Source: a bacterium (GTDB lineage Bacteria; CG2-30-53-67; CG2-30-70-394). From it: a stretch of 43,729 nucleotides of DNA. Below are positions 35,936 to 43,729 of the stretch, piece by piece. The stretch spans positions 1 through 43,729 of the forward strand of contig JAJRSX010000099.1 of the NCBI GenBank assembly GCA_024278555.1, read 5' to 3'. The notes below the pieces were generated by a model. The model made no database searches. It saw nothing but the letters and a program-made list of their open reading frames with translations, and was not told the origin of the DNA. The position numbers and the translations under genes are program-made. Numbering within the stretch: the first letter of the stretch is position 1; the number at the start of each line of letters is the position of its first letter.

Positions 35936-36169
35936 TCACTCCCCGTCGTCGCCAATGGCCTCGGCGGGGCACTCTTCCATCGCCTCGACGCAGAGGGCGA
36001 TCTCTTCGTTGGTGGTGGGCTGCTTGCGCACGTACGAGTGCTCCCCCTCGTCGTTGCGCCCGAAAAAATCGGCGGCGACCTCGCGACAGCTGTCGCAGTC
36101 GATGCACTCGGAGTCGACGTAGAAACGGCCGGTGGCGTTCTGGGGGTGTCTCTCAGCTACGGTTGCCAT
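35936..36169 (-). CDS. single-cluster [4Fe-4S] ferredoxin
   Basis: A 77-residue small electron carrier in the cytoplasm. Cysteines at 22, 25 and 28 (CIDCDSC) and 67 (ECPAEAI) bind one [4Fe-4S] cluster, as in monocluster ferredoxins; Cys60 could pair in a disulphide. The protein is strongly acidic at its C terminus. ATG 36169 has AGGAGA upstream. A sigma-54 promoter lies about 85 bp upstream on the same strand and a matching one drives the cytochrome operon the other way, so the ferredoxin is likely induced with it. Its redox partner is not known. Confidence 0.9.
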   Translation of the reverse strand: MATVAERHPQNATGRFYVDSECIDCDSCREVAADFFGRNDEGEHSYVRKQPTTNEEIALCVEAMEECPAEAIGDDGE

Positions 36170-36253
36170 GGGGTTCTCCTGCCTCGTGTGGACCCGGGTG
36201 AATGAGGGGTGGCTGGCGGATGCGGGGCCCGTTGCGCTCCGTGGGGGGGCTAT

Positions 36254-36270
36254 AGCAATGGACGTGCCAA
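36254..36270 (-). promoter_or_regulatory. sigma-54 (-24/-12) promoter of the ferredoxin gene
   Basis: On the minus strand TTGGCACG-TCCA-TTGCT matches the consensus YTGGCACG-N4-TTGCW at every defined position. The predicted transcript starts near 36243, leaving a leader of ~75 bases. Confidence 0.8.
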
Positions 36271-36630
36271 TCTCCCTCCGGACGGCGTCGAGCCGCGGGG
36301 AGCGGAGGGCTGGCCGCCACAGCCGGGCCGGGCGAGACGGTGGCCACGGCTCCCTCGGGGGCGCGGCAGACCGTTGCGCGACAAGGGCTCGACTGCGGTG
36401 AGACCGCCATCGGCAACCCCCACGCCGCCCTCCCGGTCTCGGCGCGGGCCACCCTCCGACACCACCACCCCAACCGTGGCGCCGCGACCGCGGAGGGCGA
36501 AGTGATTCTGCTGCACCGCCGTCGGGATTTCCCTGCAACTGGTGCCCCAGGACCACACGGCCGCGGCGACCCATCGGGGCCATCTGCCGACAGGATCACC
36601 GTCTGCATGGGTCGAGAGAGGCAACAGCCG

Positions 36631-36702: not shown

Positions 36703-37986
36703 ATGTCTTCACCCCCCGTCCACCTACGCATCATCCTTGTCTCCGCCGCCGTCACCCTCCTCACCGGCTGTGTCGGCTCCGGCTCCGGCAGCGACCCGAA
36801 CAACGCCCCGCCCGAGTTCATCGACACCGGCGTCACCCTCTCCGCCTCGGTGGTGGCACCGGAGGGGTCGGTGGCCCTGTCGACCCGGGCGACCGACCCG
36901 GACGGCGATGAGGTGACCTACGCCTGGTCCGAGGCCGCGGGGGCCGGCACCTTCGAGGCGGACGCCTCGGGTGACGGCTGCACCTGGCACGCGCCAACCG
37001 CCGAGGGGATGTACGAGATCCGGGTCACCGCCAGTGACCCCAGCGGCCACGCGACGGTCATCACCGCCGCGGTCGAGGTGACCGCCAGCCTCCACGTCCC
37101 CTCCGACACCTACCCGACGATCCAGTCGGCCCTCGACACCGCCCAGAGCGGGATGACCGTGGAGGTCGCCGCGGGTACCTACGACGAGGATCTGACCGTC
37201 AAAGAGGCGGTCCACCTGGTGGGCGCGGGTGCGGCCACTACCATCGTCCACGGCACCGGCACTGGCGCGGTCCTCGCCCCCGACTTCTCCCGCGCCCCCG
37301 GGATCACCATTGAGGGGTTCACCTTCGAGGGGGGCTCCACCGGCGTCGATGTCTCCTCCACCCCCGACTTCACCCTGCGTAACTGCGTGGTGCGCGACAA
37401 CAGCGACAGCGGCATCGCCCTCTACTCCGCCCCGGCCCTCATCGAGAACTGCCGGATCACCGGCAATTCCGGCAACGGTATCGACATCCGCTCGTCGGCG
37501 GCGACGGTGCAGGGGTGCGTGGTCGCCGATAACGCAGGCTACGGAGTGGAGATCACCACCTCCGGCGCCACCCTCCGCTTCACCACCATCGCCGACAACG
37601 TCGGGGTGGGGATCCGCATCTACCAGTCGAACGCAGAGGTCAGCGACTCGATCCTCGCCGCCAACGACTTCCTCAACTTCAACGCGGTCAACCTGCTCGG
37701 CGCCACCGGCATCTCCATCTCCAACGCCCGGCCATGGATGAGCGACCTGCTCCTCTTCTACAACGAGCTCAACGTCGACGACACCCAGGTGAACGGCGAG
37801 CGAGTGGCGGTGGACGGCGTCTACGTCACCGGCGACGCCGCCGACCTGACGGGCGATGGCGATCCGCTCCTGGCGGCGGACGGCAGCTACACCCTCGGCG
37901 CGACCTCCCCGGCCCTCACCCTCGCCTCCGACGGCGGCGAGCTCGGCGCCTACGGCGGCGGCTTCACGCCTCCCCTGGCCCCGTAA
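36703..37986 (+). CDS. lipoprotein with Ig-like and right-handed beta-helix domains
   Basis: A 427-residue exported lipoprotein. The signal peptide ends in the lipobox LLTG-Cys23. Residues ~35-130 form a PKD/cadherin-like domain (ATDPDGDEVTYAWSEAAG). From ~132 a parallel beta-helix (NosD/CASH type) begins with YPTIQSALDTAQSGMTVEVAAGTY and coils such as FTLRNCVVRDNSDSGIALYS and ENCRITGNSGNGIDIRS. There is no catalytic motif. It is the first gene after the sigma-54 promoter and is followed within 18 bp by the cytochrome genes. It may be an outer-surface scaffold or glycan-binding part of the electron conduit (inference). GAGG upstream of ATG 36703 is the ribosome site. Confidence 0.85.
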   Translation: MSSPPVHLRIILVSAAVTLLTGCVGSGSGSDPNNAPPEFIDTGVTLSASVVAPEGSVALSTRATDPDGDEVTYAWSEAAGAGTFEADASGDGCTWHAPTAEGMYEIRVTASDPSGHATVITAAVEVTASLHVPSDTYPTIQSALDTAQSGMTVEVAAGTYDEDLTVKEAVHLVGAGAATTIVHGTGTGAVLAPDFSRAPGITIEGFTFEGGSTGVDVSSTPDFTLRNCVVRDNSDSGIALYSAPALIENCRITGNSGNGIDIRSSAATVQGCVVADNAGYGVEITTSGATLRFTTIADNVGVGIRIYQSNAEVSDSILAANDFLNFNAVNLLGATGISISNARPWMSDLLLFYNELNVDDTQVNGERVAVDGVYVTGDAADLTGDGDPLLAADGSYTLGATSPALTLASDGGELGAYGGGFTPPLAP

Positions 37987-38004
37987 GCGGTACCGGAGCG
38001 ATCA

Positions 38005-39018
38005 ATGCGTCTGCCCCTCGAGCTCTCCATCCTCGCCGCGACGGCGATGTTTCTCGTCTTCATCGGCGGGCTGGGGAGCTATTACCGGCGGGTGATTGCT
38101 CAGTACCGGGTGGGGTCGGTGGCCACCAGCGACCTCGACCGGCGACAGGAGCTGATCAACCGGCTCTTCATCGGCCTTCTCCTCTCCCTGGCGATGGCGA
38201 TCACCCTCCTGCTGAGCTGGGAGTACCTCGCCGTCGACCTGTGGCCGCACCTCTCCCTCTCCTGTCTCCTCGGCCTCATCCCCTCCCCCGATCGCATTCA
38301 CCCCCTTCTGCCCGACCGTGGCCTCGGCGAGTGGCTCGGCTACCTCGGCTCCGCCCTCATGGGGATCGCCCTGCTCTACAACAAGGAGTGGGTAAACCGC
38401 CTCATGCGCTCGCGCATCTCGCGCAAGCTGTGGCTCGACTTCCACATCTTCTGCGGCGTCCTCGGGCCGGTCCTCATTACCTTCCACTCCGCCTTTCGTC
38501 TCGGCGGCCTGGTGGCGATCTCCTACTGGGCGATGGCCCTGGTCTTTATCTCGGGGCTGGTGGGCCGCTACATCTACGTGCAGATCCCGCGCGGCCTCGC
38601 CGGCCACGTGCTGGCACGGGAAGAGGTGGAGGGGCGTCTCGCCGCCCTCTCCCGTGACCTCGCCGGCGCCATCGACGGCCGCGCCGTCGCCACCCTGCTG
38701 AAGCTCCAGGAGGTCGAGCTCGCTGAGGGGGGCTGGTGGCGGACCGTGGCCGCCCTGGTCACCACCGACATTCGCGGCTGGTGGCACGAGCAGGTCCTCG
38801 CCATTGAGCTCGTTCACCGCCTCGACCGCGACCGGCGCCGCGCCCTGCTCACCGCGTACCACGAACGGCGGCTGCTCCTGCGGCGATCGCGCAACCTGGT
38901 CCAGACCCGCCGGCTCCTCGCCGGGTGGACGAAGCTGCACCACCCGATGGCCAACGTCATGGTCCTCTTCGCCGTCCTCCATGTGGTGGTGGCCGTCCTC
39001 TTCCGGGTGGAGAACTGA
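38005..39018 (+). CDS. membrane cytochrome b-type protein
   Basis: A 337-residue inner-membrane protein. Helices lie at about residues 8-25, 53-73, 110-125, 140-163, 168-188 and 312-333. Two pairs of His are spaced exactly 14 residues apart: H147/H161 (DFHIFCGVLGPVLITFHSAF) and H312/H326 (LHHPMANVMVLFAVLHVVVAV). This is the classic bis-His pattern for transmembrane haems b. Similar proteins are found next to multiheme cytochromes c, where they hand quinol electrons to the periplasm. A charged loop of ~100 residues (about 200-300) is likely cytoplasmic. Its TGA abuts the GTG start of the next gene, so the genes are translationally coupled. GGAG precedes ATG 38005. Confidence 0.82.
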   Translation: MRLPLELSILAATAMFLVFIGGLGSYYRRVIAQYRVGSVATSDLDRRQELINRLFIGLLLSLAMAITLLLSWEYLAVDLWPHLSLSCLLGLIPSPDRIHPLLPDRGLGEWLGYLGSALMGIALLYNKEWVNRLMRSRISRKLWLDFHIFCGVLGPVLITFHSAFRLGGLVAISYWAMALVFISGLVGRYIYVQIPRGLAGHVLAREEVEGRLAALSRDLAGAIDGRAVATLLKLQEVELAEGGWWRTVAALVTTDIRGWWHEQVLAIELVHRLDRDRRRALLTAYHERRLLLRRSRNLVQTRRLLAGWTKLHHPMANVMVLFAVLHVVVAVLFRVEN

Positions 39019-41391
39019 GTGGTCCGGTGGCCCGCCATCCCCCTCCTCCTCGCCGTGCTGCTCGTTGCCACCATCGCCACGGCGGCCACGGACGAGGCGC
39101 GACCGGAGGCGCGGCGCATCGTGGAGACGCCGCCGGCCACCGTGGTCACCGTGCAGGTGGAAGGCGGCGGCGATACGTCGAGCAAGGTCCACAAGGCGAA
39201 CCGAGTCCTCGGGCTGCTGGCCAACCCGGGTGAGCTCTCCGCGGTCCACGCCACGGCCGACGGCCTGAGCCACTGCGTCGACTGCCACACCCTCGGTGGC
39301 GGGGTGCAGGACGGCAAGTGCCTCGCCTGCCACCCGCCGATCGCCGCCGGGCTCAAAGAAAAGCGCGGTCTCCACGGCCGCACCGACAAGCGGTGCCACA
39401 CCTGCCACACCGAGCACGAAGGGCGAGGAGAGCAGATCACCGACTTCACAGCCGACCATTTCGACCACGAAAAGAGGGCCGGCTATCGCCTTGACGGCGG
39501 CCACCGCGACACCCCCTGCACCGCCTGCCATGGCAGTCGCCACACCGCCTCGGGACGTCCCACCTACCTCGGGCTGAAGCGCGCCTGCGCCGCCTGCCAC
39601 GCGGATCCCCACACCGGCCAGTTCGCCGACCTCACCGCCACCGATACCACCACCGGTGTGTGCGCCAACTGCCACACCGCCGATCGCTGGCGAAGGCTGC
39701 GCTTCGACCACGACGCCACCCGCTTCAAGATCGCCGGCGGCCACAAGGGGCAGGCGTGCGTCGCCTGTCACCGGGGAGGACGGCTGCACGACAACCCGCG
39801 CAACTGCGACGCCTGCCACACCTCTCCCCACGCCGCCCAGTTCGACCCGGTGGTGAAAAAGGCGAACGCGGAGGCCAACCCATGTCGCCTCTGCCACAAG
39901 ACAACCCGTTGGAACGCCCTGCGCTTCGACCACGACAAGACCCGCTTCAAGGTCGAGGGCGCCCACAAAGAGGCGACCTGCCTCCAGTGCCACCGCGACG
40001 GCACCTTCCAGAACAATCCGCGCGCCTGCACCGCCTGCCACGTCAACCGCCACGGCGACCGGTTCAACCAGCGCATCACCGCCACCGCCAAGAGCAAGGA
40101 GCCGGGAGCTGCGTGTCTCGCCTGCCACACCACCGCCACCTGGCGGGTGGCGAAGTTCGACCACGACACGTCCGACTTCAAGCTCACCGGCGCCCACAAA
40201 GAGACGGCGTGCGCCAAGTGCCACCGCGACACCCGCTTCGACGACCGCGACACCGCCTGCCTCGCCTGCCACGCCACCTGGCACGACAACCGGCTGCATC
40301 TCGCCGGTACCGACGAGACGGGCAAAGAGCGCTGCCTCGACTGCCACACCACCACCACCTGGCGGGTGGCGAAGTTCGACCACGACAAGACCGACTTCAA
40401 GCTCACCGGCGCCCACAAGCAGACCCCGTGCACCCAGTGCCACAGCCAGACCACCTTCTCCCGGGAGGAGGTGGCGTGCGGCGACTGCCACCGGGATCCC
40501 CACGACCGCCAGTTCACCCGCCGCAAGGGCAGCCACCCGACCGCAACCGCCTGTCTCGACTGCCACACCACCGAGGCGTGGATGCCGGCCACCTATGACC
40601 ACCAGCGCGAGGGGTACCAGGTCTCCGCCACCCTGCGCGCCCACGTACGCAAGCACGAGAAACAACCCTCCTGCCTCTCCTGCCACGCCCTCGGCCGGTT
40701 CGCCCGCGACCGCTTCACCTGCACCTCCTGCCACCGCAACGGCCACGGTGGACGGCTGAGCGACAACTGCCGCGCCTGCCACCAGATCGACTCGTGGGAG
40801 ATCGACCTCGACCGCCACGCGGAGCTCGATTTCAAGCTCGAGGGGCGCCACCGGGAGCTCACCTGCGACGCCTGCCATACCGACGGCATCGGCTTCGGCC
40901 ACCTCGACCCGAGCTGTGCCGCCTGCCACCAGGACCGCCACGGCGGCAGCTTCGGCGACAGCCAGTCGTGCGCCGACTGCCACTCGCAGGAGGACTGGCA
41001 GGCGGAGATCGGCCTGCGCGACGCGGACGGCTCCAAGGTCTTCTTCGACCACGCCGCCACCGGCTTCCCCCTGGAGGGGGCGCACACCCATGTGGCGTGT
41101 GGCGACTGCCACCTCAACGGCCGGTTCACCGGCAACGACGGCCGCTGCTACACCTGCCACTGGCAGCGATCTCAAGACGACGTCTGGGCGCTACAGATCG
41201 GCACCGAGTGCGGCGACTGCCACACCCCAAGCGGCTGGACCCCGGCGCGCTGGGCCCACACCGAGGCGCCCGCCGACTTTCCGCTGGAGGGGGCCCACGC
41301 CCGCGCCGCGTGCCTCGACTGCCACGCCGGATACCGCGCCCGTGGGACCGGTCGTGACTGCCTCACCTGCCACCAGGGAGATCTGCGATGA
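39019..41391 (+). CDS. giant multiheme cytochrome c with 29 CxxCH motifs
   Basis: A 790-residue secreted cytochrome. The signal peptide (MVRWPAIPLLLAVLLVATIATA) is followed by ~75 residues without haems, then 29 CxxCH motifs counted by eye, about one per 25 residues. A repeat of the form W..(L/A)(R/K)FDHD.T.F.L.GAH....C..CH recurs at least six times (e.g. around 39700, 39930, 40155, 40375, 41045). The FDH and GAH histidines are good candidates for distal haem ligands. The DNA of two repeats (40140-40205 and 40359-40424) is nearly identical. GTG 39019 starts directly after the cytochrome b stop. Periplasmic or extracellular electron wire or storage protein by inference; the receiver is not known. 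Confidence 0.93.
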   Translation: MVRWPAIPLLLAVLLVATIATAATDEARPEARRIVETPPATVVTVQVEGGGDTSSKVHKANRVLGLLANPGELSAVHATADGLSHCVDCHTLGGGVQDGKCLACHPPIAAGLKEKRGLHGRTDKRCHTCHTEHEGRGEQITDFTADHFDHEKRAGYRLDGGHRDTPCTACHGSRHTASGRPTYLGLKRACAACHADPHTGQFADLTATDTTTGVCANCHTADRWRRLRFDHDATRFKIAGGHKGQACVACHRGGRLHDNPRNCDACHTSPHAAQFDPVVKKANAEANPCRLCHKTTRWNALRFDHDKTRFKVEGAHKEATCLQCHRDGTFQNNPRACTACHVNRHGDRFNQRITATAKSKEPGAACLACHTTATWRVAKFDHDTSDFKLTGAHKETACAKCHRDTRFDDRDTACLACHATWHDNRLHLAGTDETGKERCLDCHTTTTWRVAKFDHDKTDFKLTGAHKQTPCTQCHSQTTFSREEVACGDCHRDPHDRQFTRRKGSHPTATACLDCHTTEAWMPATYDHQREGYQVSATLRAHVRKHEKQPSCLSCHALGRFARDRFTCTSCHRNGHGGRLSDNCRACHQIDSWEIDLDRHAELDFKLEGRHRELTCDACHTDGIGFGHLDPSCAACHQDRHGGSFGDSQSCADCHSQEDWQAEIGLRDADGSKVFFDHAATGFPLEGAHTHVACGDCHLNGRFTGNDGRCYTCHWQRSQDDVWALQIGTECGDCHTPSGWTPARWAHTEAPADFPLEGAHARAACLDCHAGYRARGTGRDCLTCHQGDLR

Positions 41392-43729
41392 ACCGCTGCG
41401 CCCTCCTCCTCGCCTGCTGCCTCCTCCTTCCCCACCTCGCCGAGGCGAAGCTCGACCACAAGGCGGCCGGTTTCCCCACCGACTGCACCCTATGCCACGA
41501 CCCGGCGGACGCCGACTGGTCGCACTCGACCTTCATCCACGACACCACCCAGTTCCCCCTGGAAGGCGGCCACCGCGTCCTCGACTGCGAGCAGTGCCAC
41601 ACCACCACCCGGTTTTCCGGCCTCCCCACCGACTGCGCCGGTTGCCACTGGGACCGATCCCACGACGACGCGTGGAAGCTCCAGATCGGCCGCGAGTGCG
41701 GCCGGTGCCACCGGCCCACCGGCTGGCAAAAGGCACGCTGGGACCACAACGACGAGCCTGCCCACTACCCGCTGGTCGGTAAGCACGCCACGGTCGAGTG
41801 CCTCACCTGCCACCGGAGCTACCAGGCGCGCGACACCTCTGCCGCCTGCATGTCGTGCCACCAGCGCGACTACAACCAGACCGACCACGCACAGGTCGGC
41901 CTCTCCACCAACTGCGAGGACTGCCACGACGCAGCCGCACCGGACTGGCGCGCCACCGGCTTCGACGGCCGCGCCTTCGACCACGACGTCACCGGCTTCT
42001 CCCTGCGCGGCCGCCACGCCACCCTCGACTGCCAGACCGCCTGCCACCAAAACGGCTACGTCCGCACCGCCACCGACTGCGTCGACTGCCACCGGTCCGA
42101 CTGGCAGGCGAGCCTCCACGACGCCGCCCACCTGAACCTCCCCACCACCTGTGAGACGTGCCACTCGGAGTCCGGCTGGCAACCGATCGACTGGCGCCAC
42201 GACGACCCGCCCGCCAACTTCCACCTCGACGAGCCGCACGCGGCGGTGGACCGCTGCGCCACCTGCCACACCGGCTCCGTGACCGCCGGTGCGACAGACG
42301 CCTGTGAGAGCTGCCACGCGCAAGATGAGCCCGCGGGCCACTTCGGCGCGCCGTGTGCCGCCTGCCACGAGGCGGGCGACGGCACCTGGCAGATGGGGCG
42401 CTACACCAACTTCGACCACGGCACGACCCAGTTCCCGCTTACCGGGGCTCACCAGACCGTCGACTGCGCCCAGTGCCACCTCGGCCAGTACGCCGGCACC
42501 CCCACCGACTGCTACACCTGCCACTGGCAGCGTTCACAAGACGACCTCTGGCGACTCCAGATCGGCAGCCGGTGCGACCAGTGCCACACGACCTCCGCCT
42601 GGCCGACGAACATCCAGTGGAGCCACACCGATCCGCCCGCGGCCTACGCCCTGGAGGGGCTCCACGCCCAACAGGTGTGCCTCACCTGCCACCCGAACCA
42701 CCAGGCCCAGGGGATCACCGCCGACTGCTACGCCTGCCACCAGGCCGACTACGAGCAGGCGACCAACCCAAACCATGTAACCAGTAGCTTCTCCACCAAC
42801 TGCACCTCGTGCCACCTTGCCGCCGACCCCAACTGGCAGGCGGGAAGCTTCGGCACCGGCTTCGACCACGCCGCCACCGCCTTCCCCCTCACCGGCGCCC
42901 ACCAGACCGTCGACTGCGCCCTCTGCCACCAGAACGGCCAGTACGGCGGCACCCCCACCGACTGCTACACCTGCCACTGGAGCCGCAGCCGGGACGACCT
43001 CTGGCGGCTGCAGATCGGCAGCCAGTGCGACCAGTGCCACGCGACCTCCGGCTGGGCGACGAACGTCCAGTGGCGCCACACCGACCCGCCGGCGAATACC
43101 CCCCTGGTGGGCAGCCACGGCCAGCAGACATGTCTCACCTGCCACCCGAACCACCAGGCCCAGGGCACCGCCGCCACCTGTATCGGCTGCCACCAAGCCA
43201 ACTACGACGCCACGACCAACCCGGACCACCAGACCTCCGGCTTCTCAACCGACTGTGAGGTGTGCCACCGCGCCGCGGGCATCGACTGGCAGGTGGCGGG
43301 TGACTGGCAAGGGGTCGTGGATCACAGCGCCACCGCCTTTCCCCTCACCGGTCTCCACCTGGCGGCCACGTGTGACTCCTGCCACCTGAACGGCCAGTAC
43401 GCCTCCACCCCGACCGACTGCTTCACCTGCCACTCGAGCCGCAGCCAAGACGACGTGTGGGGTCTTCAGATCGGCCAGCCGTGCGGTGATTGCCACGCCA
43501 CCCTCGGCTGGGCGGTGAACGTCCAATGGAGCCACACCGATCCGCCCGCTACCTACGCCCTTGAGGGGCTCCACGGCCAGCAGACATGTCTCACCTGCCA
43601 CCCGAACCACCAGGCCCAGGGGACCGCGAACACCTGCGACGGTTGCCACCACACCGACTACCAGCAGGCCGCCAACCCGAACCACCAGACCTCCGGCTTC
43701 TCCACCGACTGTGCCCTCTGCCACAAGGC
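41388..43729 (+). CDS. giant multiheme cytochrome c, at least 31 haem sites, runs off the right edge
   Basis: Starts at ATG 41388 inside an ATGA overlap with the preceding stop and stays open for 780 codons to the window end. The signal peptide is MNRCALLLACCLLLPHLAEA; a cysteine in it (e.g. C10-C11) leaves a lipoprotein possible but no clear lipobox. There are 30 CxxCH motifs and one CxxxCH (CQTACH, near 42031). The protein is made of six-haem modules starting at 41484, 41913, 42354, 42801, 43254 and 43710. Each has FDH..T.FPL.G.H, then CxxCH sites in a fixed order. Modules 3-5 share GTPTDCYTCHW, LQIG..C.QCH, HTDPPA and CLTCHPNHQAQG. Together with the upstream cytochrome it would supply about 60 haems in one operon. 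Function by inference: long-range or extracellular electron transfer. Confidence 0.92.
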   Translation, partial: MNRCALLLACCLLLPHLAEAKLDHKAAGFPTDCTLCHDPADADWSHSTFIHDTTQFPLEGGHRVLDCEQCHTTTRFSGLPTDCAGCHWDRSHDDAWKLQIGRECGRCHRPTGWQKARWDHNDEPAHYPLVGKHATVECLTCHRSYQARDTSAACMSCHQRDYNQTDHAQVGLSTNCEDCHDAAAPDWRATGFDGRAFDHDVTGFSLRGRHATLDCQTACHQNGYVRTATDCVDCHRSDWQASLHDAAHLNLPTTCETCHSESGWQPIDWRHDDPPANFHLDEPHAAVDRCATCHTGSVTAGATDACESCHAQDEPAGHFGAPCAACHEAGDGTWQMGRYTNFDHGTTQFPLTGAHQTVDCAQCHLGQYAGTPTDCYTCHWQRSQDDLWRLQIGSRCDQCHTTSAWPTNIQWSHTDPPAAYALEGLHAQQVCLTCHPNHQAQGITADCYACHQADYEQATNPNHVTSSFSTNCTSCHLAADPNWQAGSFGTGFDHAATAFPLTGAHQTVDCALCHQNGQYGGTPTDCYTCHWSRSRDDLWRLQIGSQCDQCHATSGWATNVQWRHTDPPANTPLVGSHGQQTCLTCHPNHQAQGTAATCIGCHQANYDATTNPDHQTSGFSTDCEVCHRAAGIDWQVAGDWQGVVDHSATAFPLTGLHLAATCDSCHLNGQYASTPTDCFTCHSSRSQDDVWGLQIGQPCGDCHATLGWAVNVQWSHTDPPATYALEGLHGQQTCLTCHPNHQAQGTANTCDGCHHTDYQQAANPNHQTSGFSTDCALCHK
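42354..43709 (+). repeat. three tandem six-haem modules (~450 bp each)
   Basis: Unit starts at 42354, 42801 and 43254, and a fourth begins at 43710. Unit lengths are 447, 453 and 456 bp, each a whole number of codons. DNA identity between units is high, e.g. the blocks around CACCAGACCGTCGACTGCGC (about 42449 and 42899). Two older, more divergent units precede them (41484 and 41913; 429 and 441 bp). Confidence 0.85.

Follow-up and report, generated by a model that had tools for sequence, protein, structure and literature searches.

A probable PCC3-type trans-envelope electron conduit operon, cut by a contig end, in a Nitrospirae-labelled lineage

Positions 36,703 to 43,729 of contig JAJRSX010000099.1 carry the first part of what we read as a seven-gene PCC3-type trans-envelope electron conduit operon of a Nitrospirae-labelled lineage, a reading drawn from sequence to which we give a probability of roughly 0.83. 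The window, that is, the whole stretch of DNA analysed, is the complete contig C68 (43,729 bases) of a genome of 3.06 Mb in 211 contigs. Four genes of the operon lie in it:

36703..37986, +, beta-helix lipoprotein gene, first of the operon (427 amino acids; lipobox, PKD domain, NosD-like right-handed beta-helix)
38005..39018, +, cytb, cytochrome b or inner-membrane protein (337 amino acids; homologue of the PCC3 inner-membrane protein)
39019..41391, +, c1, 29-haem cytochrome c (790 amino acids; signal peptide)
41388..43729, +, c2, predicted outer multihaem cytochrome c, cut by the contig end (780 amino acids in the window)

The lipoprotein stop codon at 37986 is followed after 18 bp by the cytb ATG at 38005, the cytb TGA (39016-39018) abuts the c1 GTG at 39019, and c1 and c2 share an ATGA overlap at 41388-41391. 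c1 contains 29 CXXCH motifs, and the window part of c2 contains 30 CXXCH and one CXXXCH, giving 31 haem sites. When proteins of this composition are shuffled, the mean is 0.3-0.5 CXXCH and the maximum 3-4 (1000 shuffles), so the haem motif counts are not due to chance; a search of the genome of the window for paired haem motifs by one fixed DNA pattern gave no match. The intergenic spacings, the exact c1 length and its haem number are all kept in Nitrospirae bacterium CG2_30_70_394 (G001, hereafter the sister genome), which belongs to the same genus, and on that basis we take the genes to be real and coupled. An earlier note on this DNA had described the four genes (a lipoprotein, a bis-His cytochrome b, a 29-haem c1 and a c2 with at least 31 haems) and their coupling; motif counts, Pfam matches, coordinates and the conserved spacings bear out both descriptions.

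Because the contig stops at 43729, inside c2, a porin seems to be missing from the window. The first 64 bases of contig C135 from the same genome (locus L024) are identical to the last 64 bases of the window, and its downstream genes are those of the sister contig; this exact overlap and shared gene content indicate that C135 continues the operon with the following features:

C135, to 1193, remainder of c2, continuing the window
C135, 1186-1500, trihaem lipoprotein
C135, 1497-2783, beta-barrel
C135, 2810-4072, cyclic-nucleotide-binding (CNB)/4x[4Fe-4S] protein

The sister genome has the full operon on one contig, comprising the lipoprotein, cytb, c1, c2, the trihaem lipoprotein (105 amino acids), the barrel (430 amino acids, ending in FVQAGMRF) and the CNB iron-sulphur (Fe-S) cluster protein (416 amino acids). 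Its c1 has the same 790 amino acids and 29 haems as in the window, and its c2 has 554 amino acids and 20 CXXCH. A gene recognised from sequence as arginyl-tRNA synthetase follows in both C135 and the sister contig. The operon orthologues of the two genomes are 64-81% identical (81% for cytb, 75% for the lipoprotein), and the whole is a predicted seven-gene operon of which the window carries the first part.

PCC3, as defined by He et al. (2017, PMC5566968), consists of a porin, an extracellular multihaem cytochrome (MHC; median of 34 haems), a periplasmic MHC (median of 21) and an inner-membrane protein (IMP) of about 300 amino acids. The IMP is marked by a double WX3HX13H signature together with SGXXG, and the MHCs have 22-39 residues per haem (PMC5566968). 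The published PCC3/PCC4 IMP signature is present in full in the cytb of the window:

38431..38487, +, first predicted haem-b helix (W143..H147..H161, WX3HX13H; invariant in two cytb alignments)
38551..38565, +, SGXXG motif, here SGLVG, residues 183-187 (G184 and G187 invariant in the alignment)
38926..38982, +, second predicted haem-b helix (W308..H312..H326, WX3HX13H)

Distant relatives keep these W, H and G residues unchanged. Five hydropathy segments of cytb are above threshold, one of them in an extra N-terminal stretch, and a sixth, weaker one is likely (the PCC3 IMP has five helices). PCC3 homology was measured on gammaproteobacterial clusters of the published layout, in profile-profile comparisons with the genus pair: cytb matches their IMPs at E = 7.3e-30, and c1 matches their 21-haem inner cytochromes at E = 4.3e-72. 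A relative of cytb with a solved structure was not found. With cytb as the only query, we also collected related loci, which came from 43 of 386 genomes sampled domain-wide and 57 of 368 in a gammaproteobacterial sample; the full signature is present in 122 of the 128 cytb matches, and the loci repeatedly follow the order cytb, MHC with 20 or 21 haems, MHC of variable length, barrel. Loci L200-L219 are called gammaproteobacterial by the class of a genome with an RpoB 81% identical to that of E. coli.

The barrel completes this gene set. Modelled by AlphaFold2 with 22 relatives, the sister barrel has 22 strands (mean pLDDT = 79.7, pTM = 0.72), and a Foldseek search of the model against the PDB gave 285 matches at E<=1e-3, the best being the FimD/PapC pore, the OprD/Occ family, AlgE and OmpF. 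Searching with a profile made from the two genus barrels picks up the barrel genes in related clusters (up to E = 2e-9), and the family connects to gammaproteobacterial clusters through Bacteroidota barrels (E = 2.2e-9). Pfam gave no MtrB match on the barrels, just a weak one to the generic OMP_b-brl family. A predicted outer-membrane beta-barrel (porin) thereby belongs to the operon.

Both cytochromes appear to be built from repeated modules. By spacing pattern, c1 is laid out as nine trihaem modules and a final haem pair, three trihaem modules more than the 20-haem form. Among 101 complete inner MHCs of these mutually related loci, whose counts are consequently not independent, 58 have 20 haems, 16 have 21 and 11 have 23; the tally takes in L009 and L089, which are one and the same contig, and an outlier with 5 haems. 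All 20 gammaproteobacterial inner MHCs have 18, 21 or 24 haems, 74 of the remaining 79 have 17, 20, 23 or 29, and other Nitrospirota/Nitrospinota loci have inner MHCs of 28 and 29. Outer MHCs range from 10 to 67 haems, with 46 of 68 fitting 3n+1 (13, 16, 19 ... 67). Since the counts step by three and the haem motifs are spaced by ~33/16/18 residues, we consider the modules to be trihaem and c7-like. These data point to c1 and c2 as predicted wires of such modules whose length would change by whole modules.

In c2 the repetition is visible at the DNA level, in units of ~151 amino acids with 72-79% DNA identity to one another:

42432..42881, +, c2 six-haem repeat unit 1 (150 amino acids)
42882..43337, +, c2 six-haem repeat unit 2 (152 amino acids)
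43338..43729, +, c2 six-haem repeat unit 3, cut (its last 64 bases are the start of C135)

Joined to C135, c2 has about 44 CXXCH; its repeat region (42432-43729 plus L024 1-1193) differs from the sister c2 (L009 3982-5646), with 20, by four six-haem tandem units. In Burkholderiales, the larger MHC of clusters of this kind has been reported to show insertion and deletion of CXXCH domains (PMC7399161).

The likeness to PCC3 extends over the gene order, with the IMP first, then the predicted periplasmic and extracellular MHCs and last the porin, which is that of Slit_1446-1449 in Sideroxydans lithotrophicus (IMP, cyt-c_p, cyt-c_e, porin; PMC12016527), the IMP signature, the homology of cytb and c1, the repeats in the MHCs and the haem packing, with 27.2 residues per haem in c1 and 26.0 in c2, both within the published 22-39. 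c2 is also poor in Lys (0.8%) and rich in Thr, Ala, Gly and Ser, as published for extracellular PCC3 cytochromes. The operon differs from PCC3 in having 29 inner haems instead of about 21 (20 or 21), a barrel of 430 amino acids with 22 predicted strands instead of 580-900 amino acids, additional beta-helix and trihaem lipoproteins, a CNB/4x[4Fe-4S] protein in place of an Fe-S flavoprotein, and a cytb with an extra N-terminal stretch. As the window cytb falls outside the gammaproteobacterial clade, we use the term PCC3-type and not strict PCC3. On its gene content the operon is a predicted variant of this known and widespread conduit class, with unusual extra parts. The earlier note had suggested an undescribed form of conduit; the gene set and membrane-protein signature were already published as PCC3, and what stands of that suggestion is a divergent, differently equipped branch. 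PCC3-like clusters from Bacteroidota, Ignavibacteriota, Calditrichota, Fidelibacterota and others (L090-L168) have homologous cytb, inner MHC and barrel in the same order, and differ from the window in an inner MHC mostly of 20 or 23 haems, an Fe-S flavoprotein beside cytb and the lack of the beta-helix lipoprotein. A PCC3-type cluster with 23- and 40-haem cytochromes is also found on the Emticicia oligotrophica plasmid pEMTOL02 (L086), beside a CcsA cytochrome c biogenesis gene.

Other known systems are more distant. PCC4 (He et al. 2017) shares the IMP signature and, in its subgroup II, an Fe-S protein adjoining the IMP, but has three small periplasmic MHCs (4, 5 and 10 haems) and no extracellular MHC; with 29 and about 44 haems and a trihaem protein in the present operon, membership in PCC4 was rejected. 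MtrCAB/MtoAB would work in a similar way, with a barrel and periplasmic and outer multihaem cytochromes, but has a decahaem MtrA, an MtrB-type porin and a CymA-type donor where cytb stands here, and was rejected as the barrel has no Pfam MtrB match. The best PDB match of the c1 family is the Geobacter dodecahaem cytochrome GSU1996 (3ov0, E = 7.6e-12), its closest solved sequence relative, which has trihaem c7-type modules in a row but 12 haems. To our knowledge, GSU1996 is not part of a cytb-barrel operon.

Several observations weigh against this assignment. In a tree of 122 cytb sequences the gammaproteobacterial rows group together with 100/100 support, and the window is placed outside this clade on a long branch; compared directly with gammaproteobacterial PCC3 porins, the window barrel gives a non-significant E = 0.06. 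An AlphaFold2 model of c1 computed without haems has a pTM of 0.32, with the N-terminal part alone confident, and the periplasmic location of c1 and the extracellular one of c2 are ones we infer. The join of C68 and C135 passes through a repeat, which makes the true c2 repeat number uncertain. Finally, PCC3 itself is functionally untested (PMC12442390). In the same cytb tree, G004 (L013), from the class of the window, is the only non-gammaproteobacterial member inside the gammaproteobacterial clade, and horizontal transfer of its cluster is possible.

In the PCC3-type conduit proposed here, cytb would exchange electrons with a cytoplasmic Fe-S protein, the quinone pool or both; the electrons would cross the inner membrane via the two predicted b haems of cytb and would be carried over the periplasm by c1. 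With the trihaem lipoprotein acting as a putative adaptor, they would then traverse the barrel and reach c2 at the cell surface, which may hand them to a mineral, a humic substance or a partner cell. He et al. propose the quinone pool as electron source or sink and quote a length of ~100 Å for the decahaem MtrA (PMC5566968); scaled roughly from that value, the 29 haems of c1 would reach about 290 Å, which is long for a periplasm. Whether the conduit takes up electrons (e.g. from Fe(II)) or exports them is not decided, and neither the three haem-copper oxidases of the window's genome nor the absence of RuBisCO from it settles the matter. The sister genome has DsrL, and its sulphur physiology has been called unclear (PMC7596348). 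Other contigs of the window's genome (L025-L036) contain many more multihaem cytochromes, with up to 13 CXXCH, and an alternative complex III (ACIII)-like operon.

The earlier note had proposed a trans-envelope conduit without a porin, whose place would be taken by the beta-helix surface lipoprotein. Its multi-gene character, the membrane cytochrome b and the two giant exported cytochromes are supported by the sequence analysis, and the porin-less form is not. The quinol-facing role that it gave to cytb is a guess; the conserved neighbours of cytb are Fe-S proteins in which no export signal was seen. The lipoprotein, with its lipobox LLTGC and its Pfam matches to a PKD domain (E = 1e-8) and a right-handed beta-helix (E = 7.5e-21), does stand first in the operon and keeps its 18-bp spacing in the sister; the barrel gene, however, follows c2 within the same operon both on C135 and in the sister, where the contiguous arrangement refutes the idea, and relatives of the lipoprotein are absent from all 128 related loci outside the genus. 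We therefore regard a porin-less conduit as extremely improbable, and the lipoprotein would be a genus-level extra.

The dense haem packing, tandem repeats and very long chains would also suit a nanowire, with c1 or c2 polymerising into an extracellular filament like OmcS, OmcE or OmcZ and the other genes serving assembly. This we consider quite improbable: a sequence search of the PDB with c2 gave nothing at E<=1e-3, and the matches of the c1 family are to GSU1996, a single-chain dodecahaem protein, 6r2q, HmcA-type and other multihaem cytochromes, with no nanowire recognised; moreover, module duplication has given a single chain its length, and the inner-membrane partner and the barrel are conserved. 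Similarly slim are the chances of a mainly periplasmic charge store (capacitor) or redox-stress buffer, even though such cytochromes have been proposed to store charge (PMC10734462; PMC7399161), since the barrel is conserved, two differently composed cytochromes follow in order, and a near-constant inner length with a free outer one fits compartment spanning better than charge storage.

The partners of cytb on the cytoplasmic side also deserve attention. The CNB protein, in which no export signal was seen, combines a cyclic-nucleotide-binding domain with 16 conserved Cys that would hold four [4Fe-4S] clusters, and in G040 (L012 8509-10491) CNB, 4x[4Fe-4S] and cytb are fused in one protein of 660 amino acids. 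Elsewhere, 104 of 121 loci (L010-L013, L066-L168 and L200-L219) have an Fe-S flavoprotein of ~440 amino acids, with pyridine-nucleotide-disulphide oxidoreductase and Fer4 domains, near cytb, mostly within 300 bp and, in Gammaproteobacteria, on the opposite strand. The genus of the window provides the only fully flanked locus without it near cytb, and no full-length copy is present in the two genomes of the genus, where the CNB-Fe-S protein occupies its place. The flavoprotein is a partner outside the four PCC3-defining genes in published descriptions. Given the G040 fusion and the Fe-S genes conserved beside cytb, we lean towards a cytoplasmic Fe-S partner for it. More speculative, and on balance unlikely, is a signal-controlled, quinone-independent wire from cytoplasm to exterior, in which the cyclic-nucleotide-gated 4x[4Fe-4S] protein (elsewhere the NAD(P)H-type Fe-S flavoprotein) would hand electrons directly to the b haems of cytb and the trihaem module count would set both wire lengths.

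Some further Fe-S genes were noticed near cytb or its relatives. A small ferredoxin-like gene (MATVAERHPQNATGRFYVDSECIDCDSC...; 35936-36583, minus strand) is divergent from the operon and is also present in the sister genome. The Glaciecola plasmid pGLAAG01 (L088) has a short cytb relative between Fe-S (ferredoxin-like) and cytochrome c genes, just upstream of a [NiFe] hydrogenase operon, and a Methylophaga plasmid (L087) has one flanked by genes for an Fe-S protein and a cytochrome c.

PCC3 was named in Proteobacteria, and homologous clusters of fixed order are now shown in several further phyla. The inner wire is near-constant, mostly 20 or 21 haems, and the outer one has anything from 10 to 67; this pattern would be expected of an inner wire that has to span the periplasm. 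Given the steps of three, adding or removing whole modules could change the length of a wire, and the consequence for electron transfer could then be measured. The Fe-S partner conserved beside cytb suggests a cytoplasmic donor or acceptor that current quinone-pool models leave out.

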